NCBI GenBank assembly: GCA_963971425.1
Contig: OZ020517.1
Location: 312,501 to 376,500 of the forward strand
Origin: Bryoerythrophyllum caledonicum
Taxonomy: Eukaryota > Streptophyta > Bryopsida > Pottiales > Pottiaceae
DNA: 64,000 bases
Direction of reading: 5' to 3'
Positions within the stretch are counted from its first letter, which is position 1; each line of letters opens with the position of its first letter. The notes beneath the pieces were generated by a model that was given only the letters and a program-made list of their open reading frames with translations, did no database searches and was not told where the DNA came from. A program made the translations under genes and the position numbers. Shown here one piece after another: positions 6,328 to 61,194 of this stretch.

Positions 6328-6539
6328 TTTGCTCACAACCTTCACTATGGAACCTCCAAATCTTGGTTACAACCATGGGTCATTCAAACACAAAAAGGAG
6401 ATTTGACCATGTGCCCATGAGCAAGACTTGGGTTCTCTGCCTCTTCGAGATGTCCCAGATGGCCGCCATGTGTGAGCCACAGAAACGGCTCACGGTGACA
6501 AAGGGGCCACGCATCGTACCCATTAACTTTAACAAGTAG

Positions 6540-22620: not shown

Positions 22621-22621
22621 T

Positions 22622-36282: not shown

Positions 36283-36286
36283 ATTG
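36283..36286. repeat. Target-site duplication ATTG (left; partner 55616-55619)
   Basis: ATTG lies directly outside both terminal inverted repeats of the 19.3-kb element, and family B sequence continues beyond each copy. Four bases can match by chance, but the location inside one retroelement supports a single insertion. Confidence 0.75.
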
Positions 36287-36578
36287 AACACCATATTCGT
36301 TATAATGGGAGATTTCCATGATTTTGAAGATATATGATCTTTAAAGTATCAATATATATAGACAATTGTAGGTGCAAAGCATATCAACAATGCACCAAGA
36401 ATACTATATACCATTACATGGATGGACCAAATTAGCCGAATGTCCCAAAAAATGGTAACGCTAAAAGAAGCATGTACCAATATTCCAAGCTTTATTTAAA
36501 ACTTCATGAAAAAAAATCACAAACAACACTCATTCACCCCGAGGCAAAACACAATCATCCTATCACTAATCAAATGGT

Positions 36579-36825
36579 CTACGGAGTTCCACCATAAGCT
36601 TCTATACGCGTCTTCAAAAAAGCCCTTTGACGTTGCCTTGTCCATGTTGCACCATTCTCTTGCATTAATGGACTCTCTAGAAGACGCTGCAAACCCCGCC
36701 TACGCACCTCGTCACTGTTTGATTTGGGCAGCGAGTGCCGGCGGGTGGGGGAAGGAGAGCATTTGCCTCTAGTAGCATCCCCAGACAAAGTTCGAGGACG
36801 GAGACATTTACCGAATGGTCCCTGC
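36579..36825 (-). CDS. Basic terminal exon of unknown function
   Basis: Open stretch after acceptor TTGTGCAG (exon would start near 36820): GPFGKCLRPRTLSGDATRGK, SPSPTRRHSLPKSNSDEVRR, TRQRQRAFLKTRIEAYGGTP. Arg/Lys-rich, ending at a stop at 36579. It may be the last exon of a small gene with 37057-37461 or an alternative 3' end of the large gene. No family recognised. Confidence 0.35.
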
Positions 36826-37056
36826 ACAATAGGCGCCACACACAATCCAAAGAAACACACTTTAGGTCGAATACTGCTACACAACACAGATGAAAATTTA
36901 ATCATTGAAATCCATCCTAGCGCACATTAGGTCGGATGGAGCTAAAATGCAGAAGGAAAGATCCACAGAGCACATTTAACCCCCAACAAAAAAAACAAGC
37001 TTAAATGAACCAAAACTACATTAGTGCAATGTAGCTCAACAACAAACCAAAATTGT

Positions 37057-37461
37057 CTAGGCCAAAACATCGCAATAGTGCAATAAATTGGAGGTCATCA
37101 TAACACGCACCGCAAGCGAGCGTTGGGAAGTACCATCCCTTAAACCGTCGTAGAGAATACGCTTTGCTGGAGTACAATTATCCGGATTTAAAGGCGGGGA
37201 CCCAGGAACTAAACGAGGCCACTGCGGCGAAGGCGAGTTGTTCCTATCATGAATTGGCTCCCGCGCAATAGGGCTTTCAACAACTCCGTCGTCCACTGCC
37301 ATGGTCGAATAATCCATGGTTGATTGTGCGGTTGCAGCAGAGTGCAACAAAAGCCCTTTACTCCGAAGAGAAAGGACGAACTCCTCTGGCCCTAGCAAGG
37401 AATCCACGGACGCCCGACAGTCACAGTCCTGTAGAAATTTCAACCACAGTGACACTGACAT
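37057..37461 (-). CDS. Small unidentified ORF, 134 aa
   Basis: Open stretch MSVSLWLKFLQDCDCRASVD ... RVMMTSNLLHYCDVLA on the minus strand, 240 bp downstream of the phosphatase-like exon stop. It contains a Pro/Ser-rich middle (NNSPSPQWPRLVPGSPPLN). A weak TTTAGCTC-type site (37643) lies between it and the phosphatase-like exon. No domain recognised; it may be a separate gene or an exon joined to 36579-36825. Confidence 0.35.
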   Translation of the reverse strand: MSVSLWLKFLQDCDCRASVDSLLGPEEFVLSLRSKGLLLHSAATAQSTMDYSTMAVDDGVVESPIAREPIHDRNNSPSPQWPRLVPGSPPLNPDNCTPAKRILYDGLRDGTSQRSLAVRVMMTSNLLHYCDVLA

Positions 37462-37697
37462 ACCTTAGAACAATAGATGAAAATTTCAATCATTCAGAAT
37501 AGCACGACATTCCATCAGCAGCAGATATCCAATTCCCACAACAAACAAAGCGGTGAAACATCTCAGTTTCATTTATAAAAAAATATATAGACAGAAAATG
37601 GTCCAACAAAATTTACAACATCGAGCTGCAGTCAATCGATACAGTTTAGCTCTATGCGACCTAAAGTGTAAAAGGAATCTAAGCGTTTCCAACGGCA

Positions 37698-38489
37698 TTA
37701 AGAGCGGAGATTTCGAAACGCTTGGATTGCGTTCCAGATACTCGCAGACTGACCACACGTCTTCTGATCATTATAAAACATCTCCCGGCCAGAGGGATGT
37801 TCGGCCCGGTACCGCGCTAGACCACCCGGAAACCGATGAAGGTCAGAGAGATATGGCAGCAATTCCTCCAACAATACAGAGTCGTCTCTCGCGCCAACAT
37901 GTTTGTGCGACCATGATGGAAGAAGGACGTTCTCCGGCAAATTGAGCATGTGCTTAATCGGGCTGTCGTCAATGACAAGCGTATTTGCCGGAGTATACTC
38001 ACGACCCAACCTATTGAAGAGATGGCTCGATAAGGTCTTCAAGAAGATGTCCTTCTGAGTGCCAGATTCCTTCATGTAGAATGTTCTGCTACCGACTCTA
38101 CGCTCGGGAACCCTATCGCAACTCTCTTGACCAAAGATCCTGAGAGGGTACGAAGAACTATGCTGAAAAAGATAATTACATATCTGACGCGTTGTAGATT
38201 CCATCATCGAACTCCAGATCGTGATGGTGGCAATCTTAGACAACTTCGTAAGAAATTCAGCACAACCAGGGCATACTTGAACTAGTTTAGGGCCTACTTC
38301 GGCCGGCAGCGAAGCCGAGTGAATGGACGGGATAGAGTCCCTGGATCCTCTGGCCTGCCAAGACGGCTCACACGTGCATAGAATCCGATTGAGGTCCAGC
38401 ACAATGTTCAACCACCTGCCCTCGATATCTGAATGGACTCTAGGTATTTCTTCTAGATTATTGGCATCACTTATTGATGCCTCGCCGAC
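37698..38489 (-). CDS. FCP1/NIF-type phosphatase-like domain (exon 5 of the large gene)
   Basis: HAD-superfamily phosphatase-like domain of the FCP1/SCP (NLI-interacting factor) type; family members dephosphorylate proteins such as the RNA polymerase II tail. Motif I reads NIVLDLNRILC where active members have D-x-D-x-T, so the second Asp is Asn, as in many plant DLN-type relatives; catalysis is doubtful. Then VCPGCAEFLTKLSKIATITI, WSSMMESTTRQICNYLF (motif II region) and TLVIDDSPIKHMLNLPENVL (motif III DDSP) follow. Acceptor AACCAG at 38490-38491 gives phase 0, matching the phase-0 donor at the end of 38633-38895, so it can be spliced to the methyltransferase gene. A separate gene starting at an ATG in this region cannot be excluded. 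Stop TAA at 37698. Confidence 0.65.
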   Translation of the reverse strand, partial: VGEASISDANNLEEIPRVHSDIEGRWLNIVLDLNRILCTCEPSWQARGSRDSIPSIHSASLPAEVGPKLVQVCPGCAEFLTKLSKIATITIWSSMMESTTRQICNYLFQHSSSYPLRIFGQESCDRVPERRVGSRTFYMKESGTQKDIFLKTLSSHLFNRLGREYTPANTLVIDDSPIKHMLNLPENVLLPSWSHKHVGARDDSVLLEELLPYLSDLHRFPGGLARYRAEHPSGREMFYNDQKTCGQSASIWNAIQAFRNLRS

Positions 38490-38632
38490 CTGGTTCGCAA
38501 ATGCCAGGAGAACGACCAATATTACTACAGATTCATTAACAACGACGATTCAACAATACGTAGAACGAAAGAGATAAATGGGGGAGGAGTGATGGGGGAA
38601 TGAGTGGAGTTCGAAAAGAGTTAGAAGAATAC

Positions 38633-38895
38633 CTCGAGAACTTCATCGTCCTGCAACATTTCGTCTCGGGCACCCATCGATCCCAACGAACCCTGCATGC
38701 TGTCAAGGGGCCCGGAGTGCCCGACATCCATTTGGGGGCACGGTTCTGGGACAAGAAGAGGTGGCTCAGAATCATGATTGATCTCGTCTACGAGCACGGC
38801 AAAAACTTGGACGATCTCTTCTATGACTGGGACTGCAGTTTGGACGACCTCTTCTATGACTGGTTGAGCAATCGCGTCATCACCGAAACTTAGAT
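38633..38895 (-). CDS. Acidic exon 4 of the large ParB/methyltransferase gene
   Basis: Exon without its own ATG. Acceptor TTTTTCCAG before 38895, donor GTATTC after 38633. Upstream exon 3 ends with one extra base (phase 1) and this exon supplies two, giving an Asp codon at the junction, then LSFGDDAIAQ; 263 bp = 2 + 87 codons, ending in phase 0. It holds a near-tandem repeat, PVIEEVVQTA / PVIEEIVQVF, and a strongly acidic end (ARDEMLQDDEVLE). No domain recognised. Confidence 0.6.
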
Positions 38896-39106
38896 CTGGA
38901 AAAATTCAACAACTTCACACCTATCAGCGGATGGGCACAGAGGACACGGATACAAGTCACAGTGGTTAGATGTCAAGCAGTTTAGCTCGACTCGAGCTGA
39001 AGTGCTCGCCGTGCACTGTAATATTAACAAAAAAAATACTGGAGTACAAAATTGGACATTTACAAAATGTTCTGCCTCTATACACTCGCAACTACGTTAC
39101 ACTAAC

Positions 39107-40064
39107 CTGACGATGACATGGGGACATCTGCGATAGATTCGTCCCGATCGGGCGACTTCGGAGGGGAAGAGGGGCGGGCCGACGCGGAAGGGAGAACAGG
39201 AAGCAATTGAGCCCCACTGGAGACGGGGGAGGTAACCGACGGATATGGAAGCTGCAAATCGCGAGACGGACTCGTAGACCCGCCGTCCGGCGATGCGGGA
39301 GGCTGGGGGATTGCAGCAATAATTACGGGCGGTGATGTGGCGGAAGTAGGCAAATTAGCCGACATGAATCTCTGCATCATGAGCATCATCTCGACATGCC
39401 TCTGATCTTGGTCTCTCTTCATTTCATCGTCACGCCTCCGCTGCAGATCCCTGAGCTCCTCGTCGTGCTCCGCAAGTCGCTGCTCCATCAACCTCATCCG
39501 GGTGGCCTCCTCTTTGAGCTTCTTCTCAAGGGAGATCAACCTGCTGTCATCCTGAGCGCTGCTCGCGATAGCCAAAGGAGAGCGCGTGCTCGCGCTAGCA
39601 ACCTTCCTCTTCTTGGCCGCGGGACGAGCGGTTGAAGCGCCCAAGGTGGGAGCTGAATGAGGCCTGTCGGAAATCTCCAACGAATCCAACTCCGGGAAGT
39701 CCAGTCGTTGTCGCGAGGAAGCGATTGTGTCCCCTGCTTCAGATTGAGATGCACTCTGAAACTCAGGCGGAGTAGCGTCAACGAAGTCGTCCTGGGACTC
39801 ATTATCCGGAGTGACGGTGCTCGAGATCGGACACGCAACCACAGCGCTCGGCTCCGCATCTTCCTCCTCATCGCCGAGGTCAATAATGGCTTTCCCCTTC
39901 CCCTTCCCAACGGCATCTCCAAGCTCGGGGAAGATCTCCGAGTTGACGTGATACGCAGAAATATCGAAATCGGCCCGATCCAACGTCAAGCCGACCTCAA
40001 AGGCGTCGTCGAGATCCTGCTCATCGGTGTCGTGAGAAATGCAGAACGCTTCCAGGTCCAGCAT
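39107..40064 (-). CDS. Exon 3: methyltransferase end, nuclear-type linker and coiled coil
   Basis: Acceptor GTGCAG directly before ATGCTGG (40064); in phase 0 with exon 2. The first residues (MLDLEAFCISHDTDEQDLDD) continue the motif I region of the methyltransferase where families have (A..LGR..IG.E.D), so the junction makes biochemical sense. Then a polar linker with a basic stretch (RPAAKKRKVASASTRS), a likely nuclear signal, and a charged coiled coil (LKEEATRMRLMEQRLAEHDE, LRDLQRRRDDEMKRDQDQRH), then a Pro/Ser-rich end. Donor CAG/GTTAGT at 39107. A palindrome site (about 38975-39005) lies in the next intron. Confidence 0.65.
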
Positions 40065-40343
40065 CTGCACACCAATGGATTGAACAAGATACAATTTAGG
40101 TCGAGTCGAGCTAAACTCAATACAAACAATTGCTGGTACAAAAACTTGGCTATTATAACTTCAAATGATACGAACGAAGTTAATGACATCCATAAAATCA
40201 TACAAGAAAAAGCCGACACTTTAGGTCGAGTTGAGCTAAAGTTTCACCAAACAGCATAGGCATGACCACATTGAAACTATGCACGAGTCAGAAAGGGAAT
40301 AAACAGTTTAGCTCGACTCGAGCTAAACTGCAGGGATGCTTAC

Positions 40344-41711
40344 CACACTTGCTGTCAGTAATTTCGTCCCGCCAAACAGCTGGACAACAAAATCCCCCCT
40401 CTTGCAGAACAGCTCCAGGAGCTTGACGAAGAACTCCATCCTCATCTCGTTCATGTTCATGAAGTACGCCAACTCGTTGTACTTGCGCAGCTTCGTGTAC
40501 AACACATGCTCTGGAGCTGCGTAGATCTTCTTTACGGCTGGGATCACCGTAAGCTCCTTCTTGAAGAGAAAGAGGAGCCGAACCGGGTCTAGAGCGTTGT
40601 TGGTCTTCGGCGCGAATCCTCCGAGGCGCTCGTTCTCGGAGGGAAGATACTTCGACTACAGTACATCGTATGCATGGCACAACGACGGGCCCTCAGCAAA
40701 CGCTGTCACTTGAAGGTGTGACTGCTCGTTGCCGCAAATGAAGAGCCAGGCTGGAAGATCGGTGAGGGGAGGCTGCCCTTTCGATGCGAACATCGTCATG
40801 AACTCGTCAAAGAAGGGCCTCTCCAACGACGATGACGACGTCCCAGAGAACCCAGGGATGTTCCGGAAGTCGATGATGCCGAGCTTCACATTGCAGCCCA
40901 GGTTGCGCCATGAATCCGAAGGCCACGTCCCGAGCGAATTCGTTGCCGCCTTGTAAGAATGGAAGTGCAGGGCTCCCACTGGTGAAACGAACCGCGACCG
41001 CACATCGATGAAGACTCTGAAGAACTCCTTCGCGTACGGAGAGAGATCTTCACATTTGCAGTTGCGAAACTACGTCTGCCTCGAGTTGGCGTAGTACGAA
41101 TCCGGTGGACCCCAATCCAAGAGGGCACGCTTTGAGGCCTTGCTGATGTTGTAGTTCTTCTTGAACGTCTGCCAGTTTGAACGTCTGTACGCTCCAGTGC
41201 TGTTGAAGAAGGCCAACTCCGGCCTGATCAGTTGAAGCTCCATCCGAGCGACCTCCTTCCTCTTCCTCCGATCCACCCAATCCCGGGCTGTATAGCAATC
41301 CTCCAGCGCAGAATTTGGCAGCTTGATGACCACCTTAGGGTAGGGCAGTTTCCGAGATGGCCCTGATCGATTGAAAATGTGCTTGCACATTTTCGCGTGA
41401 TCGGCTTCGGTCATATTGCCGAGAAACTTGAAGAACTCGCGCGTCAGAACCCCATCCTTCTCAGGAACCCAAGACTTCGCGTCCTTGAACTTTGCCAAGG
41501 GCGTCGAAGTTGAATCGACGTTGATGAGGTCGCCATGCGTCGCAGAAGAGATGACATCGGACCACAGCTCGAAGGTCTCATCTGTCGCGGTGATTATCTT
41601 CACCTCGTTCGTAATTGAAAGCTCCTTCGCCTTCCCGGCTTTCTTGAGCGCAGCCTGGCTCTTCGCAACGTCGATCATTGCGAAGCGCTCACGAACCGCG
41701 TTGAGAAATGG
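40344..41711 (-). pseudogene. Exon 2: amino-DNA-methyltransferase-like domain with two TAG codons
   Basis: 456 codons, acceptor TCTGCCCAG before 41711 and donor GTG/GTAAGC after 40344, phase 0 at both ends. KRALLDWGPPDSYYANSRQT resembles motif IV of N6-adenine/N4-cytosine methyltransferases (usual DPPY). Next SPYAKEFFRVFIDVRSRFVS, VGALHFHSYKAA matches the helix and strand after motif IV. Near the end FFVKLLELFCKRGDFVVQLF, GGTKLLTASV resembles motif I (usual GDxVxDPFxGSGTT). Motif IV before motif I is the beta-class order. Two in-frame TAG codons, at 41070-41072 and 40656-40658, break it; otherwise the exon is open. It would methylate DNA, but the changed residues (DWGPPD; LFGGT) leave activity open. 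Confidence 0.6.
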
Positions 41712-41939
41712 CTGGGCAGAACGTAAAAGGGTCGTTTAAGTATACAATAAAGCAGGAATATTATCATGTCTAGTAGGGTCCAAAACACTGCAAGTTAGCT
41801 CGAGTCGAGCTAACTTGCAATGCAAAAGCAGACAATGAAAGCGATTTCAATCAATACACATGACTATACAGATACAGAGCAAACTTGCACTTTAGCTCGA
41901 GTCGAGCTAAAGTGCATGACCTTGGTTAAGATATATTAC

Positions 41940-43387
41940 CTCAAACCTCTTATCATTGGCCATTTCAACTGCAGTTCTCCGACCTGACTTGTGAGACCCG
42001 CGAACGCCTGTGGCAGAGTGCTTCGGCATTGGTCTCCCAGCTTGGATCCACAAAGCACGGGAGCCGAGGATATTTGTTGCCCACGTCGGCTTGAACTGGA
42101 CCAAATGATTCACGCGAGTATAATACGCGGAAATCTTCCTCAGCTTCTCCGGAGCTTGCGTCCAGACAATGTAACATTGCCATGTTCGAAAGTGCCTTCT
42201 CATCACCTCCGGAACGTTGCCGTTAATCATCTTCTTTGAGGCAGCACCGCTGTGCTGGCCGTTGATGATGTAGAAGTCGCAGTCGCTGAGCTCCTCCACA
42301 GTCGTCGGCATAGTGTCGAGCTTCGGCATGACGCAGAGAGTCTGCTTCTGCGTCTTGTCTGGCATTTGGAGGTAGTAATGCTTCAACTCCTCCATGCCCC
42401 GAGGCTCGAACGCACGGATCGTCCACTCCGGCGGTGCATTATGCAACCTCATCACGTCAAGCTCGATCTTCATCTCTCTGTCGCCTTTGAAAAAACAGCT
42501 CTGACACTCCGTCCAGAATTTCTGGAAAATCTGTTGGACGTTGTTGTAGTCGATTGTCTCTCCGTATCCGAGCGCCTTGGGGAGCTCCGAGAGTGCAGAG
42601 GCCATCGAATTGGCTTGCTCCTCCTCCGATACGAGCTTCGACTTCTTTCTTGAAGAGGTCTCCGGCTTCTTGGCAGCTGAGCGCTTCTTGACGGGGGAAG
42701 CAGACAGCGTGTTGCGCAGAGTGCTTCGACTTGTTCTTGCACCTGGAGTTCTAACCGGTACCGATGCCTGACTCATGTCCTGGCTACCGGTCACGGCCCC
42801 CGAAACCGTTGAAAGTTCTATCGGCCGTCTTGCCGCAATATTCTTCGCCTTATCTAGAGCGGCAAAGGTACTCATTCTAGAGAGAATGACGCGCAATTTA
42901 TTAGCTATAGCCTTTGCTTTCAGTGGCTGTCCGCTACTAGTCTCCCATTTCTTAAGGGAGATCTCATGCTCGACCTGAGTCACTATTTCCTCAAATTTGG
43001 ATGACCTAAGAGAATCGACCAAATCCAAGATACAGAAGGGAGATGAACTATTGTTTACTATAATAGTAAAGAAATACGGATCTAAGGACTCAGAGGTCGT
43101 CTCACACGACAATTTAACGTGATCGTTATCTTCGTGGACTACATCAGTAACTTTGGTCTTGAAGTCGATGTGCTGGGGATCGACGATAGCACCAGCGAAG
43201 GTCTGACCAAACACTAAATGATCCGTATAGGTCGCCCACAGAAGCGTCCACTTCAGTGTCATCGATGGGTCCTTGAGCTCCCAGCAGTCCAAGTGGTTGT
43301 TGTCGTCTCCATCGTCATCGTCAAGGTCGACAGGCTTTGGCTGGAAGAAGTGCTGCAGCTGCGACACCATCCTGTCCCTCTCAGATC
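41940..43387 (-). CDS. Exon 1: N-terminal domain, basic linker and ParB-like domain
   Basis: A possible start is ATG 43370 (MVSQLQHFFQPKP); an acceptor GTTTGTGCAG-like sequence before 43387 suggests that an earlier exon may exist. The N-terminal 150 residues (DCWELKDPSMTLKWTLLWAT, VFGQTFAGAIVDPQHIDFKT) form an unidentified domain, perhaps BAH-like. A Lys/Arg linker follows (SPVKKRSAAKKPETSSRKKS), a likely nuclear signal. The ParB-like domain: IELDVMRLHNAPPEWTIRAF, then QTLCVMPKLDTMP, then DFYIINGQHSGAASKKM (usual IDGQHR), then CYIVWTQAPEKLRKISAYYT. Bacterial and phage proteins often fuse ParB-like domains to DNA methyltransferases, and exon 2 provides one. Donor GAG/GTAATA after 41940, phase 0. 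Confidence 0.65.
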
Positions 43388-43574
43388 TGCACAAACACAA
43401 AATAGAGCAAAGATATTAGATTGCTCTAATGATCAACCGATTAGGACGGCGAGGTCACACATTAGCTCGACTCGAGCTAAAGTGTACCGTTATTCAAGTA
43501 TGTGAGTAATACTCTGCAAGAAAATCTAGTCAATTTGACCGTTCGCTTAGACGCTTACAATCAACTCATGCCTG

Positions 43575-44360
43575 CTTCTCGTTCAACTCTCAGAACTGTG
43601 AAAGAGCTTCAGGTCACACTCAAATCACTCACAAACCTCACTCTTTGAGGTTCTCAAGTGGTTGAAGCGGGACTGAAGCTCTTGCACGATTTATGAGAGG
43701 TGAACGAAAAGTAGACGTGAGTTGAGTTAGGAGACTGCAATTACACCAATGTATCAATGTTGTATTCAAGTTTTAGCTGCATCTTTAGCTCGACTCGAGC
43801 TAAAGTGCTCATGCATGGAATGCATAGCTGAACAATTCTGACACTTACAATATTCATTCAAACGACTTTCCTATACATTTTAATTCAAATCATGGCTACT
43901 TCTCGTTCAACTCTCAGAACTGTGAAAGAGCTTCAGGTCACACTCAAATCACTCACAAACCTCACTCTTTGAGGTTCTCAAGTGGTTGAAGCGGGACTGA
44001 AGCTCTTGCACGATTTATGAGAGGTGAACGAAAAGTAGACGTGAGTTGAGTTAGGAGACTGCAATTACACCAATGTATCAATGTTGTATTCAAGTTTTAG
44101 CTGCATCTTTAGCTCGACTCGAGCTAAAGTGCTCATGCATGGAATGCATAGCTGAACAATTCTGACACTTACAATATTCATTCAAACGACTTTCCTATAC
44201 ATTTTAATTCAAATCATGGCTACTTCTCGTTTAACTCTCAGAACTGTGAAAGAGCTTCAGTTCACCCTTAAATCACTCACGAACCTCACTCTTTGAGGTT
44301 CTCAAGTGGTTGAAGCGTGACTGAAGTTCTTGCACGCATTTGAGAATTTTACGAGAAGTG
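43575..44360. repeat. 324-bp tandem duplication upstream of the large gene
   Basis: Two near-identical 324-bp units (43575-43898 and 43899-44222) and a third, partial diverged one. Each full unit contains one palindrome site (ATCTTTAGCTCGACTCGAGC, TAAAGTGC at about 43790 and 44105). The near identity of the first two units marks a recent duplication, or an assembly duplication. Confidence 0.9.
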
Positions 44361-44454
44361 GACATGAGTTGGGTCATCGGTATCATTGGATTACTATACA
44401 TTTGGAATGTTTAAAGTCCGAATAGTGTTGTGTTCGGGTTGTTGTTTATGTTCA

Positions 44455-45115
44455 TTCTCTCACACTTTAGCTCGATTCGAGGTAAAGTGTGTAGGCTTTA
44501 CAGAGAGGCCATGTTTTATTTTAAACCCTGTGTTTAAGAGTTGATATTAAGACTTTATTTCGAGTAGTCTCTTTTAGCGCAACCGAAGACGTACGAAGTC
44601 GTACATTTTATCTCGAGTCGAGATATTATGTGACCTCGATAGTGTATTATCGTCCACAATTTAGCTCGAGTCGAGCTAAATTGGGACTTTTCTGTGCACA
44701 TTTGGCACACTTACGCTCTTGTTGCGCCAAAGTGCAACTTTGTGTTTGCTTCATTGATCAAACTTTACCTCGAGTCGAGTTAAAGTGTGGCCAAATGTTC
44801 ACAGAAAAGGTCCACTTTAGCTCGACTTGAGCTAAAGTATGGCCAAAGATGCACAGAAAAGGTCCACTTTAGCTCGACTCGAGCTAAAGTGTGGCCAAAG
44901 ATGCACAGAAAAGGTCCACTTTAGCTCGACTCGAGCTAAAGTGTGGCCTTATGTGCACAGAAAAGGCCCACTTTAGCTCGAGTCGAGCAAATGTGTGGAT
45001 ATTAGTGCACAGTGGGGGCACACTTTAGCTCGACTCGAGCTAAAGTGTGGACAATAGTGCAAATATGGATTTCCCACATTAGCTCGACTCGAGCTAAACT
45101 GTGTTCAATGAATAG
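44455..45115. repeat. Palindrome array 1 (about ten sites, 52-bp spacing)
   Basis: Ten sites of type CCACTTTAGCTCGA-(C/G)-TCGAGCTAAAGTGTGG at about 44463, 44606, 44658, 44760, 44812, 44864, 44916, 44968, 45018 and 45074. From 44760 onward spacing is close to 52 bp, with a shared spacer (CCAAAGATGCACAGAAAAGG). It lies in the divergent region upstream of the minus-strand gene, so it may be a promoter/operator region. Confidence 0.9.
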
Positions 45116-46110
45116 CGTATTTATCGCAGATTGTACAGATTCGTCATTCGTTATATGATACTGAAGGCGTAGGGTTCAGGGCTCCTGGGTGAGAGTATGG
45201 ATTTTACCTTTCAGCCATTGCTAATGAACCTTAATCCCAGACAAATTCTGCTGGAACTAGACTTCCTGCAACAACAATTACAAACCCACACACAAAATCA
45301 ATCAAAGTAGCACATGGAAACCAAAACATTGAAATCTTTCACATTGAAATCAACACTTTGAAATGGGCAAATTGAAATTCAGCACTTTGAAATAAACACA
45401 TTGAATTCAGCACATTGAAACAATGACATTGAAACAATGACATTGAAACAATGACATTGAAACAATGACATTGAAACCAGCACATTCAAACTAGCAGAAA
45501 GTAGCACACTTACACCAGTTCAAACCAACACATTTAAACTAGCACAGACCACCACAAATATCCACAAACCACCACAAAACCACCACATTCAAATCACCAC
45601 ATTCAAACCAGCACATTGAAACCAATATACACTCTCATCTACGTGCTGACACATACATCAAAAGCAATGCTACACATATATTATGTTTCAACACATCATA
45701 TTAAAAGCAAAACTACACAAATATCAAAACAAATGCAAGACTGAATGAGTGCACTTACCTTTAGAACTGAGAAATCCGACTGGAAAAGCTGGAAGTCTTG
45801 TTACTTGATCACGTCAATCCTCCACGCACGGCCGTTTCAGACTCTACGTGCTCACAGAAACTCACAGAAACTCACACACACTCACAGAAACTCACACACG
45901 CTCATAGAAACTCACACACACTCACAGAAATTCACACACACTCACACAAACTCACACACGCTCACAGAAACTCACACACTCGCAGAAACTCACACAAACT
46001 CCCACAAACTCTCACAAACTCACCCAAACTCACCCAAACTCTCACAAACTCACACAAACTCTCACAAACTCACACAATCTCACGCAAACAGCCCTAAACT
46101 CTGGCGCTGC
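45116..46110. repeat. Simple-sequence region: CATTGAAACAATGA and ACTCACAGAAACTCACACAC repeats
   Basis: At 45340-45480 CATTGAAACAATGA-type units of 14-15 bp repeat; at 45500-45620 CACCACA and CACATTCAAACCAG motifs repeat; at 45845-46085 a (ACTCACA(G/C)AA)n array of about 25 units. Open frames here are artefacts of composition. Confidence 0.85.
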
Positions 46111-49100
46111 AGTGTACACGAAGTCACACAACAACAAATCGCACGTCCTACAAACCCTATGCGCATGAAACCCTAGACTCCAATAAATTGCACACGGAAG
46201 CCTATACGCAGCGCTACAGTGTACACAAACATAACAATCCTTGTAGATAACGAAACTAACACAAACCAACGCATCAACTCACAAAACTCAGAAAACAACA
46301 ACGCCTGGAAGTACACGGAAAACCTGGACTGCAACGAAAAGAATAGAAAAATGGCTCGCGCCACGACTTCGTGGGGAAGTTTCTGGGCCACCTATAGCCG
46401 TGAGGGTCGAAACCCTGTGGCCGTTTGGTGGTCCCGAGATACCCTCGGGATACCCTTTGCGATATTGGGGTGTAACTCCCGGGTATTATGCCGGATGCTC
46501 CACAAATCCTAAACCTTCGTTACTGATACCCGGACTTTTAAGAAGCCAATTTAATTTTACCAGAATAAGTTCAAGATATTACGCGCCTGTAGTATTTGTG
46601 TACTCGTAAATTTCCAACACAATTTTTCGGAGCCACTAACACTACAGGTTGGATATTTTGGGGCAACGAACAGGTAGCAAAAGGAAAGTTATTATTTCCA
46701 ATCTCTTTCGTATGATCTCAATTAAAACTTCTAAATTGACATTTTCTCAATAATACACAAATTTAAATTGGACGAAAGTGAACGTTTACAGTATTTAGTG
46801 TTTAGTTTTCTTTCATGGTTTTAGTGGATCAACTGGCTTTCACTTCACTTGATTTCAATTTTTTCATTACACAAGGAGTAAATTCATTACCATCGATATA
46901 TATAAGTTCCTCCTACACCAATTATTAGGTCAAGCACACTTAAGAGAGTTTTAAAGCTACAATTTTAAGATTCTATTACTTTGAATTCAAGTTTTGCTTT
47001 TTTATGAGTTTGATATTATTTTCTATGACAATCGAATAGACAATAAGTATGTTAAGACCACATCTTGCAATTGTATAATTATAAAATAAATGCCAGTGGA
47101 CACTTTAGCTCTAATGGAGCTAAAGTGTGCGTATTAGCTTTATAGTTCCCTACATTTACTGATGGTGTACACTTTAGCTTTAATAGAGCTAAATTGTGAA
47201 TTTTTTCTGTACTTTTCACTTCATTTTGCTTTTACTGTAACGGTACAAATACAGTTGTTAGAGCATCTCCCCCACTGACGGAGAATTTTCCACGCCAGCG
47301 GGAAGGTGCCCAAGTTTGAGATGAAGTGGGGGGGGTCACCCTTTTCCCCCCGCACCGTCCCCGAATTGGCCACTATGAGGGAACGCCAACGCCCAGCACT
47401 AACTCTGTAGTAGGCTAATTTTTTTGGAGGTTTTTATTGATTTCTTTTAATTCCCTCGTGTAATTTCATGCTTGAACACATGCTCTCGGGGAATTTTGGT
47501 GTCCCCTGTACTTTTTGTTAATTTACTATTTAGAGGAACCGGCGCCGCCACTGCAGTGGGCCGGTACACCGGCCTAGGCCTCACGGAGTCGGCTTTACCG
47601 TGTTTATTCTTGCATTCCGGTCACTCGGTCCCGGTGGAGATTATCTTTTTCTAGTACACTATTTGTCAACAAGTTGGCAACTAGTTTTAGCCACCATTGT
47701 CCTGAATATTATCCCTCATTCGTTCACCTACTACAGTTCATTTCGTAATAGCCCTCTATCAAAACTCTTCCCTAGCACACAATTTTGATACTTGATAAAT
47801 AGTATAAGCTCAAAGTCTTTAGCCTACCGGTCGCCATGCATTCATTCTTCGTCTCATCTTCAACCTCAATTTCTTATCCTCTTATCCACAACTATTCTCA
47901 TTCCCATCTCTTGCATTTTCTTTACATTATTTAATATTATCTAATGAATATTTAATGTGTAATCAAATATTTAGCCAATAACTAATGACTTTGTAATGAT
48001 TTTTTAGAGGATAATTCATGTATATTGGTATATCTGTAACTTTTATGCACAATTAAAGAATATTGGAATTTTATTTATTGAATGTTGGAAGTTTTAAAAG
48101 TATATTTATGATAGTTTATTAATATTTATATATTTAATGATTATTTAAAGAGTATTTAATGCACTGTTAATGAATAGTTAATGAATAGTGCATAAATTTC
48201 TAATGTAAAATTAATGTGTATTTGAATATTTAATGAGTATTTAATTAATATTTACTGAATATGTAATGCACATTGAATGCGTATTATGTGATGGATATCT
48301 AATGAGTATTTTACTTGTATTCCTATATTTATTGTATGTTTAAGTTTTTTCCTTTTCCAATATTCCATTCTTTTCTCATTTTCGTTTCCAAAAGAATGTT
48401 CTTATATTTCCAGTCTTCTACTTGTAGTTTCATTTTCCCTCCATATTTTACATTCTACTTTGTCCAAATTTTTATATTTTCCTTTTGCTCCATACCTACG
48501 TCCGCTTATTTCCAAGCTCTTTCTTGCAAATTCTTCCTTTTCTACATGCACTCAACCCTTCTTTACTATGATGCTCAAGATGTAATCAAATCATGATTAA
48601 GGTTCCCTACAGTAATTGTCGACAAGTAAAAACTTTATGTTCTACTATTTACTAGGATTGACATTTAGTGTAGTAGTTGGCATTTAGTGTAATATAGTTT
48701 TGTCACTACACTTATTGTAAATTTTACAATTACTGTGTGCATTCCTATTTAGTTTCCACTTCTCTAGAAGCCATCTTCTGTATACTGGAGCTACATAGTG
48801 CATTTTTGCTTTCTAATCCACTCCATTTAGTGATGGTGCACAATTTAGCTCTAGGAGAGCTAATCTGTGCATATTATCTTTTTAGTTCACTGCACCTAGT
48901 GATGAGGCACACGTTAGCACCAGTGGAGCTAAAGTGTGTGCGCACACTCCTTTTAGTTCACTGCATGTAGTGATGGTGCACACCTCTGCTAAAAACCGAT
49001 CTGATGTATGTGCAATGTGTATTTCCACTTCTACAAACAATCATTTTGAACTCCGTACTTCTCCTTATGGATAAGTATTTCACAAGTGGAATAGTTATCT

Positions 49101-50390
49101 TTTGAATTTTAAAAGGATTTTCATAATATGTGGATCTAAATCTCCAATAGTAATATTAAAAAACAAAAAAATATGACGATCCCCTAGTTTTTAGTGGATA
49201 TGAAGTCTAAGTATTCTTGGTACCCTAAATCAATAATATGTGACAATGTGAAAAATAGATGAATGAATATGTAATCTTATTTTTCACTAGAAAAATAACA
49301 TATTTTTTCACAATATCATTTGTTCTAATATTACTTCTATGTATTGAAAATACCACATTCCATACTGTGTCATAGCAAAAGGTTTTTTAGGTTGCTCGAT
49401 GTGCCGGCAATCGAGAAGTTTCTCTTTTGGCTCGCATAACTTTTAATGAAGACGTTCATTGAGAAAATAAATTACTTATAAATATGCCTCTCATTGAGAA
49501 AATACATTACTTATAAATATGCCTCATTACTTTTATCATCCTTCTACAAGATTTTGAGAATTTTAAATATAATTTGCGACCACTAGAACGTGCTCAAAAA
49601 CTAATTATTCCATCTTTGCATGTATAAATAAATTCAAAATTACTTATATTACGAACATTAAATTATGCCTGATGCACTAAGTGATACACTTTGTATTAGT
49701 TATATTTTATATTTTGATTATCCTTTTTTTGTCATGAGGAGGTCTCTCCGTTTCTTATTTAAATCTTTTAATATTGTTCCACTCTCTATGTTTTACAAAT
49801 GACAAAGTCTTCAATTTCACGTCAAAACATGAAATAAATTGTATATGGTCAAGAATTCTTCCATCTTTTATGTCATGCTTAGATTGCCACACCCTAAAGT
49901 CATGAAAATACAATGTGAACTCAAATATAAGATATTTCAATCCAAAATTAATATTACTTTGCGCATATTTCAAGTCTTTGAGTACCTCTAAGTGGAAAGT
50001 AACCAATTTCAATTGCAAATCCAGACCATGGGGACATTGGGATTCTTGCCAAAGAATGCACATTCTAAATTGATGACGAAATAGTTACATGACGAACATT
50101 TTTAAAACCCCAAAGAAATGATGTCCAAAGCATGTTTGAATACATTTGTTTTGGCTAAAAATACACGTGCACATATAATATGTTTTTTTGTTTTTTAAAA
50201 TGCTACTCGTCTGTTAAGGTCTTTGATTTAAACATAATAGATAAGTCCTATTTGGATTGTAATAAAAACTATTTCTAATCATCTCAATATCTTCTCTACA
50301 TTTCCCTATACCTTAGTTGAATTGTCAATATCATGAATCTTCAAAGTATTATTATATTGAAATGAATTGACATCAAAAGATATCACCTAA
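46111..50390. other. AT-rich middle of the 19.3-kb element, few features
   Basis: No gene is supported. Seen: a GC-richer segment at 46350-46500 (near-palindrome CCCGAGATACCCTCGGGATA); palindrome-like TTTAGCTC sites at 47101-47128, 47167-47195, 48839-48866 and 48909-48937; and a GC-rich insertion-like block at 47270-47420 starting GAGCATCTCCCCCAC, a start often seen in plant MITEs, with no boundary proven. 47900-48330 has many TTTAATGAGTATTTAATG-type units. Confidence 0.5.
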
Positions 50391-50399
50391 ATCAAGGAT

Positions 50400-50515
50400 T
50401 CTAAACCGTGAACCCTAAACCTGAACCTAAATTCCAAACCCTAAACCCGAAACTCCAAACCCTAAACCCGAAACTCCAAACCCTAAACCCTAACCCTAAA
50501 CCCAAAACCTAAACC
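50400..50515. repeat. Degenerate plant telomere-type repeats (CCCTAAA)
   Basis: About 15 units of (A)CCCTAAACC and variants (AACTCCAAACCCTAAACCCG repeated). This is an interstitial, decayed telomere-like tract and the main hint for a plant-type telomere. Confidence 0.8.
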
Positions 50516-51149
50516 TATCCAAAACCTTGAGCGTTACCCTAAAACCGTGTATATAACTCGCATGTGCGAGTATATTCGAGGTATTGACCTTTCCTTATTT
50601 TAGTCAACCGGGAAATAGTTGATTCAGTTTCCCGCTAAGATTTCGAATTTGCACTTTTTAGGGGCTGTGAAAAAGTCCCCCCCCCGCCAATTCTGAAGTT
50701 TCATCCCGCCAATTCTGAAACGGTCGTGTGTCCGTGAGTGACCTCGCCGATACTCGAAAACTTTCTTCATTTGTTTCCTTCTCACTTTGGTTGTTGTGCA
50801 AGGTTGTTGTGGAGAGGCTTGGAGGTAGTACGACTGTCGGAGCTTGAAGAGGGCTACACCTATAGGTTGCGCACGGTTGAGCAGGTAAGGCAACAACGTA
50901 CCGGTTGTCTTCTTCATAAGGTACACAATGTATACTTCTTGGATTCTCCGTGCATAGTCTCTAGCAATTAGGATGTGACAGTGTGTAGGGTTATTGCACT
51001 GGTTCCAGCTGCTACTGTGATTTTGAAGCATCAGTGAGAGTTTCTTGACGACTAACGGAAAGATTTGGGTTGTAGTATATAGAGAGTCAGATTCATAGGC
51101 GGAAGAGTTTTCCCATACGAATCCCGACAAAGGCGCCGAGAATCACGGA
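50516..51149. other. Upstream region of the transposase with a possible 5' exon
   Basis: A minus-strand open stretch (50624-51130, 168 codons) is not recognised. On the + strand ELEEGYTYRLRTVEQ followed by GTAAGG (about 50845-50890) and RTGCLLHKVHNVYFLDSP (about 50899-50955) look like short exon pieces with a good donor; they could be 5' exons of the transposase gene. Neither reading can be proven from sequence alone. Confidence 0.3.
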
Positions 51150-51660
51150 AGGACAGTTTAGCTCGACTCGAGCTAATCTGTCTTACGTTCTTTTGAAGGA
51201 CAGTTTAGCTCGAGTCGAGCTAAACTGTCGGTCAATATCATTATTGTCAGTTTAGCTCGAGTCGGGCTAAACTGTCCTTCGATCGAAGGTAAGGCAGTTT
51301 AGCTCGAGTCGAGCTAAACTGTCGATTCAATATTGTAGGACAGTGCAGCTCGTATGTAGCTAAACTGTCCTACTATAATGTTTCGACAGTTTAGCTCGAC
51401 TCGAGCTAAACTGTCTTACCTTCTTTCGAAGGACAGTTTATCTCGACTCGAGCTAAACTGATCTACCCTATTTTCTATGCCTTTTTATCTCCACTCGGGA
51501 TAAAATTAGATTACGTCTTATAGTCATTAAATCAGGTCGGATCGGGCCAAATTGTCACTGTCGAGGGTGAGATTATTTCATATTCGGATTAAAACTAATC
51601 GCATGAAATTTTCCACTTGTCATATAATACCGCATCAGATTACCTCGAGTCGAGCTAAAT
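51150..51660. repeat. Palindrome array 2 (about seven sites, 45-bp spacing) upstream of the transposase
   Basis: Sites of type GACAGTTTAGCTCGA-(G/C)-TCGAGCTAAACTGTC at about 51152, 51199-51229 (perfect 31-bp palindrome), 51247, 51293, 51340 (degenerate), 51386 and 51430, with weaker ones up to 51655. Spacing is about 45-48 bp. The outer arm is CAG/CTG here, against CAC/GTG in array 1, and both arms carry the matching change. Confidence 0.9.
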
Positions 51661-51818
51661 TTTCCTGTTCTTCAATGTCAATTCACTTGTATCAAATGTA
51701 TTTTCAAGCGCCAGACTTTACCTCTTCATATGCTTCTTCATTGATGTCTATTCCTACAAGATATTCACCTATTATTATTTGGCAGGGTTATTTAATGTTT
51801 ACCTCATTGGAATGCAGA

Positions 51819-54651
51819 ATGTGGTCTTCGGAGGGCGACGATGTTCATGTTGACGCTCCCGTGAACCCTGACCTTCCTGAGTTTGATGTTATTCCTCGCC
51901 GTCTCTGGGTCGGGATGACTGTTTCGCTTCACAATGGTTCGAGTGTTCGCGTTGCGGAGGGGTTGGTTCGCAATGTCCGGTCCAGTGCAATTCTAGGTTC
52001 CTCTGGTCCTCTTGGGGATTCGAATGTTGTAGTACAGGTGTCCAGTACTTTTGTTCTGGAGGAAGCTCCTGATGAGTGGAGGTACTCGTTTAAGTCCTGG
52101 CCTATTCAACAAGTTTTCTTAAACGGTGTGAGTCTCTTCCATCATTGCCTTAGGGACGTTTACAATGTCTGGTTGGTTGAGCGTAACAGACCTCTAGGTG
52201 GAAGCTCCCGTTCTTACGACAATTCCTCAAGGAATACTCGTCCAACAGTGTCCAGGAATGCTGAATTTCTCATGACCCCTCTTTCCATTAACGCAGTTGC
52301 GAGCAATAGTTGTTGCAGTGAGAACTGTGTACAACACTATCCTAGAGATAAAATAAAAGTCCTTCGGATGCGCTTGTACTGTGAGACCATTGTGCAGTTT
52401 AGAAATCATATCAAACTCGACGTTCATAGACAGTTTCATAGAAACTCTTCGGGTAGGAAGGTTGTGACCCTAGAGGGTGTAGACGTTTGTGCCCATGCTT
52501 GGATGAAAATCATGGGTGTAAGTTCGAGTACTTTCTATCGGAATGCGAAGGACGCTGCCGCTGGTCATGCGGCTCAACACCATGGGAATACCGGTTTGCG
52601 TAAGCCTAGAGGTCATACGGTTGTGGCTACTGCCGCTCTTGGAGCCATTCTCGATAGACATGTGGACCACATGCCTCACAAGTCCCGTGTTCTCCCATCT
52701 GGTGAGAAGGCTGTGGCAAAGGTCCTTCCTGCAAGTTTTAAGTGGAAGGATCAGATACCGCTTCTTGATGATCATCTCGCTGATTGTGGATTGCTGCCAA
52801 TCTCAACCTCAAGCTTGAGTAAGATTCGGCGAGTGAGCTTTCCTGAGTACTATGCCAAGAGAGGTGGGGACAACTTCGCCCGTTGTTCTACATGTGACAA
52901 ATACCAGGATCAGAAGAAGCTTACTCAACCTGGAACACAAGCATGGCTGCTATGGCAAAAGAAGATGCAGGTTCACATCGATTCTGCGTTCTCACATCGG
53001 GACTTGTACTACGTGAACCGATTTCGATCAAAGTCGTCGCCCCAGGAGGTTCTTACCATCATGCATGATAAGATGGATCACTCAAAGACCGCGTCCCCGG
53101 TTTTTTCACATAAAACAAAGCACTTAGATGGGCTTATGAAGTTGCCTCTTGCAATCACAGGCATGCTTGCCCATGGTCATGTGGACCAGCGTTACGCCCA
53201 TTACGACCTTGATTTATATTCCCATGATGCCAATTACACGGTTGGGTCGTTCGCAAAACTATTGCGTGACTTGGAGGCGCCTCCGAAGTCATCGTCCCGG
53301 CAACTCTTTCCTGAATCTTGCTCTCATCCATTGTATGCGGCCGTGCTACGGGGTGCAGAGATGTGTTTGGATCCATTAGGGCAGATTCCTGATATCCCAG
53401 TTCCTGGGAGGCCTTTGCCACCAATATTGAACGTGCAAATGGACAATGCTGTTGGTGATAACAAAAATAGATTTGTTTTCTGTTTTTGGTCTCTTCTTGT
53501 TGCAAAACGCATCTTCCGCGAGGTATATGTTAACTTTATGCTAGTTGGTCATACACATGATGATATAGATGCATTATTTGGACGTTTGAGTATGACACTG
53601 AGGAAGGAGAGTTTTCCAACCATTCCTTTGCTCATGAAGTCATTCATGAAAAATGAGAGTGTTCCCACAATCCCGCATGTCATTCAAGAGGTTCCTGACT
53701 TTAAGAAGTTCATTGGGGATATGATTGCGGACGGTGATGAAGCTTTGCAGGGTCATACAAAGGCTCATCAGTTCAAGTTTTATGTGGACTCAAGTGGTTG
53801 TCCGGTAATGAAGTATAAAATCCTTTGCCATGATGAGGATTGGCTTCCTAAGGGAGGAGAAGGTAGTGGCATCAAATTGTGGAAGGAGGATTGTGAAGGG
53901 AGGTCTTTATGGCCTCGCGGAGAACCTGATACATTTGAAGCCTTCTACGATGCGGCATCTCCATGAGGTGGTGAAGGGACTTTCAGGATTCATCGATCAC
54001 TGGGAGCAATCATCGCGGGAGTCTGTTGAAGCCCGTTCGCGTTTTGAGCCGCTATCGTATTATTGGCGCGATGTTAGAGATGCTCTGATACTTCCAATGG
54101 ATACACCGATATCATTGGAAGACGGCTTTTGGCCAACGACGCGAATTGCCCATGCCATTGAAGATGAGTTCTCAGCGGAAGGTGAGGTTCGTGAGGAGTA
54201 CCGTGAAGATGAGCATTTTGTTGGCCAGAGACGCGATCGTCCACCTCCTTCTTTTAGAGTTGGGCGTGATCTTTTTGCTGGCTATTTTGTTGCATTGCGG
54301 CCTTGTGATGGGGACGAGCGCCCATTTTGGATTGCTCAAGCGATTTCAGATCCTAATTCTAATCCGGATATGCCAAACACCGTGCGTATCCAATTCTACC
54401 GCCCTATATCGCGCAATCGGGATGTTGTGAAGTTCTACAAAGATTGGGATACTGATAGCAACCTTCGTTGGACAATTGAAAAGGGGATAGCCATAACGTG
54501 GGAGAGTACCGATTCAATCTTGACAGCATGGAAACCTAGGTCTTCAAAGAGGGATGGACGTCATGTGCAAGATTCAACTACAAAAATTCCGAAGGGGCAA
54601 GTATCGATTATCAAGGCCTCTTTAGAAGCACTTGCCAGGTCCGAGTCGTAG
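51819..54651 (+). pseudogene. DDE-like transposase of the 19.3-kb element (one frameshift)
   Basis: Start chosen at ATG 51819 (MWSSEGDDVHVDAPVNPDLP); upstream residues look intronic, with an acceptor TTTGGCAG near 51785. Domains in order: N-terminal region ending EEAPDEWRYSFKSWP; Cys cluster SNSCCSENCVQHYPRD; helix-turn-helix-like MKIMGVSSSTFYRNAKD; core with HDKMDHSKTASPVFSHKTKH, MDNAVGDNKNRFVFCFWSLL and VGHTHDDIDALFGR; C-terminal module GYFVALRPCDGDERPFWIAQ. The conserved D, D and D/E fit an RNase H-fold transposase; I believe the core is of the DUF7869 kind. The length 2833 is 944 codons plus one base: an extra base near 53930-53935 (GATACATTTGAAG versus GACGCATTGAAG in copy b) shifts the frame. 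Nucleus; would bind the element ends. Confidence 0.85.
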
Positions 54652-55615
54652 TGGACTTAGATCAATGGACTTTCCTTTTCCAAGATTTTGGATTCTGATG
54701 CGTAATACTTCATGTAGTATGGTTAGATCCATTGGTGCTGAGATTATAGACATTTGTATGACTATTATATGTGATGCCAATGATTGCTATGAAATATTCT
54801 CTCCATTATTTTTGCGTTTCGGTGATATTTTGCAGTATGTTTTATTTTCTTTTTAAAATAACAATATGAGAAATTGCTTCTAATCTTGAATCCAATAATA
54901 CCAGTAATTGTCTTCATGGTGAATGATAGAAAGTAGATGTTGAGTCGCACTTTAGCTCTAGTGGAGCTAAAGTGTGAGCAAATCTTCTTATTTAGTTCAT
55001 TGTACTTAGTAATGGTGCGCACTTTAGGTCAAGTGGAGCTAAAGTGTGTGGAATTGCCTTTTTGAGTTCATTGCACCTCTAAGTGATGGGGACACTTTAG
55101 TTCGAAGAGAGGTAGTGTGTATGCAATTTTTTTCCCACTTCTGAGCACCATCATTTGAAACTCGTTATATATTTTTAGCCAATGTGTATTCCACAAGGAG
55201 AATTGAAATTCTTTTAAATAAAAAAAGGCTCATCAAAATGTGTTTAGCTAATTCTCTTACAAGTGGATATTTGTCCGTCATGTAGCTCACTTTTAGCTAA
55301 ATTGGAGCATGGTGTTAATCCGGGTTAATAGGATCGAGTGTGAATATTTAGCTATTCATATTCAATGAACACATGTGGTATAAAAGAAGTGTCGACTAAT
55401 GTGTTCTTCTTTTCAATATTATAGTTAGATTCGTAATGCAATGTTATCCGTAGTACTTATTTTACTAGGGGTTTTTGTAGAAAACATGACCTCCCAATTT
55501 AATGGAAACTCATATCCCTCCATATTGTAGAAATTAGATGTGCACTTTAGCTCTTATGATCTACATGTGTTAATTTGGGAGTTGCTAAATCTCCCAATAT
55601 AACGAATATGGTGTT
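54652..55615 (+). repeat. Right subterminal region and right TIR of the 19.3-kb element
   Basis: Non-coding. Palindrome sites CGCACTTTAGCTCTAGTGGA / GCTAAAGTGTGAG (about 54948), GCACTTTAGGTCAAGTGGAG (about 55018) and a weaker one at 55088. It matches 24051-24760 of copy b in reverse. Ends in the TIR at about 55587-55615. Confidence 0.85.
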
Positions 55616-55904
55616 ATTGGAGTGAAGGCGTTTGCAGATCGGCCCGGAAAAGGACCACTGCCGATCGGTCAGGAAGCCAATCACTTACTCCACGAAGGTC
55701 GCTAAGTGGAACCGGATCTGAGGCAGAAGAACCCACGGTGACTGCATCTGTTGGGATGGCACTGCCACGGCCTACCTTTCCCCTAAAGTACCGGAAGTTT
55801 AAGGGGGACGGACGGGAGGGTGTAGACGATTCGCTATGTGAGTTCAACGCAACAACCACAGCAAACCAAGAGGAGAATGCCACCAAACTCCGGTTGTTCC
55901 AGAG
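55616..55904 (+). pseudogene. Family B gag, N-terminal fragment
   Basis: Resumes directly after the 19.3-kb element. TASVGMALPRPTFPLKYRKF, KGDGREGVDDSLCEFNATTT, and KLRLFQRT are typical of the start of a Ty3 capsid domain (PPLEFSG..F..W..., then KL..F...L). The reading is cut at 55904 by the MITE. Confidence 0.7.
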
Positions 55905-60310: not shown

Positions 60311-61194
60311 AACACCATATTCATTAAAATGAGACATTTCGGAGTCTCAATTTATCATGGTGTCTTTTTTTAGTCAATTTATAATTTCATTAATTTGAGA
60401 CTATGTATTAAATTGAGACTTAATCTCCATTGAAAATGCTAAATAAGCTAGTTGTATCATGGATTGTTGAATTCATCTTGTATGAAATTGAATATCATAT
60501 TCAATTGTATGTGTAAAGGTAATAGATTATAAAAAATGTACCAAGATATGGAGGATATTACCTAAGAAAAACTAATACATCCAAAAAAAATCATTGCGAA
60601 AATAAAATTACTGTGGAAAATAGAAGCAGCAATAAATGTGATAACCCCTCTAAGTAGGGTTTAAAATTGGACTAAAATACACATATACACTCATTTAAAT
60701 TCCACCTAGAATGCATACCTTTTCATTTGAAACAGAATTAATTACCAATTTCAAGAGATTCTACTATTTCCAAACAATAAGGTCGTTGAAATACCTAGCG
60801 TTGAAAAGTTAGCATGTATTGTAGCAATCCATTCAATAATTGCTATCAATAGAAAGTATCGATGCATCAAAGATAAATGTACAATTTATGACACTCACAA
60901 TGTGAACCGCCATTATACATCAATGATGAAACACAATTCCCGCCTCTGTTGTATAATATTGAAAGCAACACAATACATCACTACATGTAACTACAAATAC
61001 TAATCTAATTCTATCTACAAATATGCTATGCGCACATTTAAAGAGTACAAATCCATTCTACAGATACAAATTCACTACATACTTAATAGAATATCCAGCA
61101 CGAAAGAACAAAAAATCAAAAAAGAACATGCACCCCCCTATTTTATATTGGTAAAATAACTCTAGTCCCCAAAAACCACAAATTCCGATGGAAT
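60311..61194. other. 3' subterminal region of copy d
   Basis: AT-rich, non-coding. Near the end TTTCGGAGTCTCAATTTATC and TAATTTGAGACTATGTATTA show a short inverted arrangement (GAGACATTTCGGAGTCTC). Unlike copies a-c, no TTTAGCTC or TTCAGCTC palindrome was found here. Confidence 0.6.

Follow-up and report, generated by a model that had tools for sequence, protein, structure and literature searches.

A 19.3-kb DNA transposon of the moss Bryoerythrophyllum caledonicum with a ParB-like/methyltransferase-fold gene and family-specific palindromes in its non-coding DNA

Transposons that encode, beside the transposase, a second protein acting on the element itself have been described in Arabidopsis and maize. 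The VANC proteins of the Arabidopsis VANDAL elements are reported to bind motifs peculiar to each family, which lie in introns, between genes and in the non-coding terminal parts, and to induce the loss of DNA methylation (PMC5735166), and TnpA of maize is reported to activate Spm, in correlation with DNA demethylation (PMC10398659). Here we describe an element of the moss Bryoerythrophyllum caledonicum, which occupies positions 36287-55615 of the window (the whole analysed stretch of 64,000 nucleotides; contig OZ020517.1, positions 312,501 to 376,500, assembly GCA_963971425.1) and carries a DUF7869 gene on one arm and a gene with ParB-like, methyltransferase-type and NIF domains on the other. 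It belongs to a real, high-copy transposon family, the catalytic motifs of its methyltransferase fold are replaced, and palindromes whose symmetric arms differ among most of the families lie throughout its non-coding parts. Anatomy and precedent suggest that the element may encode a protein that reads the non-coding DNA of the element itself.

The VANDAL/VANC system is alike in having an element-encoded second protein and short family-specific non-coding motifs, often in tandem arrays, which differ between related families and spare the coding parts (as presented in PMC5735166 and PMC10398659). What the moss element shares with VANDALs is thus a pattern of non-coding motifs specific to the family, but it is not one of them: VANDAL elements are described as Mutator-type with VANC (PMC12730594), whereas the moss element has a DUF7869 transposase, 4-bp target-site duplications, palindromes and a ParB/methyltransferase-fold/NIF protein. 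Neither a MULE transposase nor a VANC (DUF1985) model scored above the Pfam cut-offs, DUF7869 and NIF being the only families above cut-off in the window copy and five relatives. The term 'palindrome' is absent from PMC5735166, while the sites here are palindromic. Moreover, binding and demethylation have been demonstrated for VANC, whereas binding and anti-silencing by the moss protein are suggested by its anatomy. Maize En/Spm, with TnpA, also has a second element protein that activates its own element, but TnpA is unrelated to the moss protein. CACTA (En/Spm) elements end in CACTA, and the terminal inverted repeats (TIRs) here begin AACACC, so membership in this group was rejected.

An extra epigenetics-related gene is also aboard the fungal DNA transposons with a TET/JBP dioxygenase, which differ in their transposases, their protein and their hosts (as far as PMC12730594 describes them). 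The CTP-dependent clamps ParB, Noc and KorB share with the moss protein the predicted ParB/sulfiredoxin fold, and palindromic sites occur in both settings; VirB, a regulator of the ParB family, is described as counteracting transcriptional silencing and as requiring CTP. ParB itself has a palindromic site, parS, and typically a GERR motif, and bacterial ParB-methylase fusions exist. The moss protein differs from these clamps in that it is eukaryotic, is fused to other domains and reads NGQHS in the window copy at the GERR-like place.

The element, its genes and its copies

A preliminary description of this DNA had claimed matching TIRs 19.3 kb apart with ATTG on both sides, and both statements hold: 27-bp TIRs (AACACCATATTCGTTATAWTGGGAGAT) were recovered at that spacing, with a match in 0 of 100 shuffled windows, and ATTG sits immediately outside each end. 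Duplications of 4 bp were found at all five complete elements, namely ATTG, ATAT, ATAA and ACAT at four copies of the family of this element (E1) and CCTG at an element of a diverged second family (E2); of two short copies, one is flanked by GTTTT (5 bp) and the other has no clear duplication. TIRs, a duplication of constant length and dispersed near-identical copies place the element among the class II (TIR) DNA transposons. Of the flanks, described earlier as sequence of a family B retroelement, portions of the left one are repeated elsewhere within the window, and none of the sequences compared matched the joined flanks as an empty site.

In the host assembly (437 Mb, 894 contigs), the left 300 bp gave 976 first-look candidates, of which the best 40 scored, window copy included, were all 98-100% identical. 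Exon 2 of the ParB/methyltransferase gene gave 1621 candidates; the best 89 scored were all below 1e-199, 51 of them without internal stop. It had been proposed to check whether the methyltransferase gene recurs between the TIRs, and it does: an exon-2 match lies 2.5-12 kb away on the expected strand at no fewer than 24 of the 40 scored left ends (22 from the 89 exon-2 matches, two from another search), and both genes are present in all three complete copies among the six others fetched, as well as in E2. These three copies, the ones with ATAT, ATAA and ACAT, have both TIRs, and their long matches are 96-99% identical. The 16 left ends without a listed exon-2 match include the three incomplete fetched copies: in one, which extends beyond the fetched stretch, about 19 kb of other DNA replaces element positions 2433-6510, and in two the match is confined to the left 6.9 and 4.7 kb, with no right TIR inside the 30 kb fetched. 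Scattered stops occur in the exons of the fetched copies, as is expected of an ageing burst. TAG, a codon that methylated plant DNA might acquire by C-to-T decay, is present in 34 of the 38 stop-containing exon-2 matches among the 89.

The transposase gene reported earlier on one arm proved to be a DUF7869 gene on the right arm, with a frame change near 53,940 in the window copy. We infer from its context that the DUF7869 protein is the transposase. Among the matches listed (7993 candidates scored) there were 55 homologues, those from named organisms belonging to the mosses Ceratodon purpureus and Physcomitrium patens, and, as regards a possible DDE-type transposase, the Asp residues in the blocks HDKMD, QMDN and GHTHDDID are invariant or at least 90% conserved in 14 DUF7869 sequences.

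The gene on the left arm lies on the opposite strand, so that the two genes are divergent. In the splice model it has five exons running from 43370 down to 37698, with in-frame GT-AG introns, and 1604 codons including the stop, and is bigger than had been stated; in a possible sixth exon, 51 of 98 aligned residues are identical to the C-terminus of the Ceratodon protein P0071. The domain order is ParB/sulfiredoxin, a beta-class amino-methyltransferase fold, a low-complexity region and a NIF/FCP1 domain. While a Pfam scan of the window copy named neither a ParB nor an amino-methyltransferase model, structure prediction with structural alignment gave both folds; the earlier identification of a ParB/methyltransferase-type gene on this arm, and with it that of a large plant transposon carrying such a gene, is thus upheld.

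By the same comparison the fold is that of the N6-adenine/N4-cytosine (beta-class) amino-methyltransferases, with active enzymes, including CcrM, among the matches, and motif IV stands ahead of motif I, as in CcrM, M.BceJIV and RsrI; the start of exon 3 probably completes it. A PDB sequence search gave no credible match. In beta-class enzymes the catalytic motif is [DNS]PP[YFW] and the S-adenosylmethionine (SAM)-binding motif FxGxG. At the catalytic place, assigned through strand and motif order, DFR stands where DPPY is expected in 48 of 50 sequences (E2 has DLR), and motif I reads GxK, with K as third residue in 45 of the 46 sequences having letters there. These replacements speak against the former conclusion that the element modifies DNA. 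A DNA-binding, non-enzymatic role would fit better, an altered chemistry being conceivable. In NIF/FCP1 phosphatases the catalytic motif is DxD; its place reads DLN in the window copy and in P0056 and P0057.

Relatives of exons 1 and 2 form 19 clusters among the matches listed, one of which represents 139 sequences. Annotated proteins of Ceratodon, 1291-1587 residues long, account for 16 of the clusters (P0056-P0069, P0071, P0073), and 12 of these 16 carry U or V locus tags. Annotated moss genes can thus be transposon genes, and this transposon gene family may inflate gene counts in Ceratodon.

E2 begins near the right edge of the window and spans 60311-84073 in continued window coordinates, that is, 20,073 bases beyond the window end. 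Its TIRs (AACACCATATTCATTAAAATGAGACA) differ between the ends by one base. On one arm it has a transposase 48% identical to P0001 and on the other, in the same divergent layout, a ParB/methyltransferase/NIF gene whose methyltransferase exon is about 30% identical to P0077 and whose exon 1 contains a stop. As both genes are present in E2 too, their pairing appears to be a lasting property of the lineage and not a chance capture. Two contigs of a 'Synechococcales' metagenome-assembled genome (L032, CADCWO010000269.1; L033, CADCWO010000243.1) encode an apparently intron-bearing transposon gene, so that this genome probably contains plant DNA.

Palindromes within and across families

A palindrome search without a preset word found 26 sites in the element, 25 of which are variants of one word. 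With this word, TTTAGCTCGANTCGAGCTAAA, at up to 5 mismatches, there are 38 sites (eight with 4 or 5 mismatches) versus a mean of 0.4 in five single-base shuffles. They occupy both gene leaders, introns 1-3, the intergenic region and stretches towards both ends, partly in tandem arrays with periods of 47, 52 and about 70 bp, and the one at 37645 falls in the possible last intron. None of the 38 overlaps a mapped exon, the mapped exons making up 40% of the element; nor does any site of E2 or of a third family, E3 (L030, another locus in the host genome), overlap the exons mapped there by tblastn, of which the later ones are only partly mapped. The naive probabilities of such avoidance by chance, 5e-9 (E1), 3e-3 (E2) and 3e-3 (E3), exaggerate it, since tandem copies are not independent. 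The leader of the ParB/methyltransferase gene also contains a 324-bp tandem duplication (43561-44341, 97%), whose unit length separates the palindromes at 43784 and 44108.

The arms around the common core CTCG-NNN-CGAG are of four types, TTTAG, TTATC, TTCAA and TTCAG, and corresponding positions carry palindromes in diverged families as well as in DNA of another organism. E2 has 21 sites of TTATCCTCGANTCGAGGATAA (shuffles 0.0) and none of the E1 or E3 word at up to 3 mismatches; E3 has 15 sites of TTCAACTCGNNNCGAGTTGAA (shuffles 0.2) and one of the E1 word, and E1 has two of the E3 word. In F5 (L031), whose exons are 31-42% identical to comparison proteins, the arms are TTTAG, with two sites in the leader and one of GTCG/CGAC core directly after exon 2; no palindrome of this kind was found in its intron 1 at the threshold used. 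TTCAGCTCGASTCGAGCTGAA occurs in the leader of L032 and, in L032 and L033, within introns 1 and 2 as well as farther downstream. Among the gene-less short copies, that of 237 bp (L020) has one palindrome of the TTCAG class, as has the older element at 21858, and that of 404 bp (55905-56308) has two of GTCG/CGAC type, one imperfect.

When sites chosen from every group were pooled (55, of which 46 distinct), 93.7% of cells paired, a figure inflated by the fact that sites were picked partly for symmetry, and 65 cells were changed on both sides. Dealing the 3' letters anew gave 78.6% pairing and 16.2 two-sided changes, and sliding the partners gave 18.6-43.9% and 1-13. Support free of this circularity comes from L030, L031, L032 and L033, where palindromes were recovered without a preset word, with three arm types among them and, with few exceptions, the same CTCG-NNN-CGAG core. 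The two arms of an E1 site match each other better than they match those of other sites (the observed value was attained in 0 of 2000 permutations), and in E3 weakly so (31 of 2000). Peptides that the E1-type palindrome would specify occur 16 times in 14 of 165 homologous proteins versus 0.1 times in shuffled proteins, by patterns fixed after some of the tails had already been seen. Of the 16, 12 are near the C-terminus, where the open reading frame seems to overrun exon 1 or 2 into the intron, and of the other four, one (P0119) is inside the protein body and may be chance; P0084 and P0158 have an identical tail.

What the protein and the palindromes may do

On balance, it is somewhat more likely than not that the ParB/methyltransferase/NIF protein is an element-encoded, non-methylating, sequence-specific regulator that acts through the palindromes of its own family. 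Its ParB domain and pseudo-methyltransferase fold would bind, as a dimer, the arm-CTCG-NNN-CGAG-arm palindromes in leaders and introns; this might keep the genes of the element open against host silencing and/or license transposition. Spreading or the recruitment of partners could maintain the transcription of the element, and the NIF domain, with DLN for DxD, may contact the transcription machinery instead of acting as a phosphatase. A more specific proposal, tentative and on the doubtful side, is that a recruited bacterial ParB-type clamp and a dead-methylase reader together make a self-specific anti-silencer, which would load at its own palindromes and spread, arms and protein co-evolving in such a way that each family mainly opens itself.

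Several observations weigh against a regulator of this kind. The palindromes are tied no more closely to the ParB/methyltransferase protein than to the transposase, and both short non-autonomous copies examined retain them, which fits a role in transposition too. The dyad symmetry is partly a product of the search, and in E2 the two arms of a site resemble each other no more than they resemble those of other sites (1642 of 2000 permutations equal or surpass the observed value). F5 shares TTTAG arms with E1 despite its exon identity of 31-42%, so arms and protein are not diverging strictly in step. The window copy itself is broken, with two in-frame TAG codons in exon 2, and the peptide patterns were fixed with some of the tails already in view.

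A different assignment of the sites, which we consider unlikely, would make them binding sites of the DUF7869 transposase, or of a transposition cofactor, for excision, the ParB/methyltransferase protein being accessory and having another role. The gene-less copies of 237 and 404 bp would then retain the sites in cis, with no gene to express. However, full elements concentrate their sites in leaders and introns and not at their ends, the first site on the transposase side of E2 being 3.8 kb from the end, and those in the first two introns of the ParB/methyltransferase gene recur among families.

Less likely still is the reading of the protein as a working methyltransferase, of the N6-adenine or N4-cytosine type, which would mark the palindromes of the element that encodes it. 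CcrM, one of the active beta-class enzymes matched by the fold, recognises GANTC, which is also the centre of the E1 consensus palindrome; but GANTC is central in only 1 of 10 E3 and 5 of 11 E2 sites and is thus no general requirement, and both the DPPY and the SAM-binding places are altered.

It is very improbable that the palindromes are functionless insertions or tandem-repeat debris spread by gene conversion. Some of them do lie in the tandem arrays, and the own-arm matching in E1 could also stem from conversion via cruciforms, but matching positions carry different arms in families at about 30-50% protein identity, and the mapped exons are free of sites. That the palindromes act as RNA, in leader and intron hairpins guiding splicing or supplying small RNAs, can be nearly dismissed, for although many lie within leaders and introns, others are intergenic or in gene-less copies, the 5-bp arm changes about a fixed CTCG/CGAG core resemble half-site recognition, and palindromes centred on a single base make poor RNA hairpins.

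If the regulator reading is true, sequence-specific self-control of a transposon by an element-encoded protein would have arisen again from unrelated parts, giving a further system, next to VANDAL/VANC, for comparing protein families with their motif families, and possibly novel DNA readers. A methylase fold does not by itself make the product of a eukaryotic gene a methylase, a point relevant to reports of N4-methylcytosine and N6-methyladenine in plants.

Feature coordinates and neighbouring sequences

Table 1. Features of the element and of the adjoining E2 element, in window coordinates
Feature	Position	Strand	Basis
Target-site duplication ATTG, left	36283..36286	.	sequence
Left TIR, 27 bp	36287..36313	+	TIR search
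Three weak palindromes (36861, 36926, 37645; 5, 4, 3 mismatches)	36861..37665	.	word search
Possible additional last exon of ParB/methyltransferase gene	37057..37464	-	likeness to Ceratodon protein P0071
Exon 5: NIF/FCP1-type phosphatase domain	37698..38489	-	PF03031 E 7.3e-16; splice model
Exon 4	38633..38895	-	in-frame GT-AG splice model
Palindrome, intron 3	38981..39001	.	word search
Exon 3: low-complexity region after start	39107..40064	-	splice model; tblastn match of Ceratodon P0056
Three palindromes, intron 2 (40095, 40220, 40307)	40095..40327	.	word search
Exon 2: helical part, amino-methyltransferase fold, DFR and FxGxK motifs	40344..41711	-	splice model, fold comparison
Two palindromes, intron 1 (41794, 41891)	41794..41911	.	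word search
Exon 1: ParB/sulfiredoxin domain (residues ~298-427), possible PH-like N-terminal domain (weak)	41940..43370	-	structure-based
13 palindromes, ParB/methyltransferase gene leader, part in 52-bp tandem array	43461..45098	.	word search
Four weaker palindromes (2-4 mismatches), intergenic	47104..48933	.	word search
Nine palindromes upstream of transposase ATG, seven with up to 2 mismatches, part in 47-bp tandem array	51157..51659	.	word search
DUF7869 (PF25273) gene, presumed transposase	51819..54651	+	PF25273 E 7.5e-45
Three palindromes by right end (54951, 55023, 55281; the last with 5 mismatches)	54951..55301	.	word search
Right TIR, 27 bp	55589..55615	-	TIR search
Target-site duplication ATTG, right	55616..55619	.	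sequence
E2 (diverged second family), window part: TIR at 60311, transposase on minus strand	60311..64000	.	fetched sequence

Further relatives lie in the window. An older relative of the main element at 21858-24052, with a TIR at 21858 and a transposase 62% identical to P0001, is interrupted by a nested partial copy at 24051-27624 (TIR at 24051), which shares 91% DNA identity with the main element's right arm and terminates at a satellite of 24-bp period. The 404-bp short element has the same TIR type and lies 290 bp beyond the right end of the main element. Apart from these, tandem repeats at 7384-9865 and 13705-15577 consist of related units of about 46-48 bp (AAGATCACGAGAGCTGG...), to which opposite-strand repeats at 34571-34950 are partly similar.

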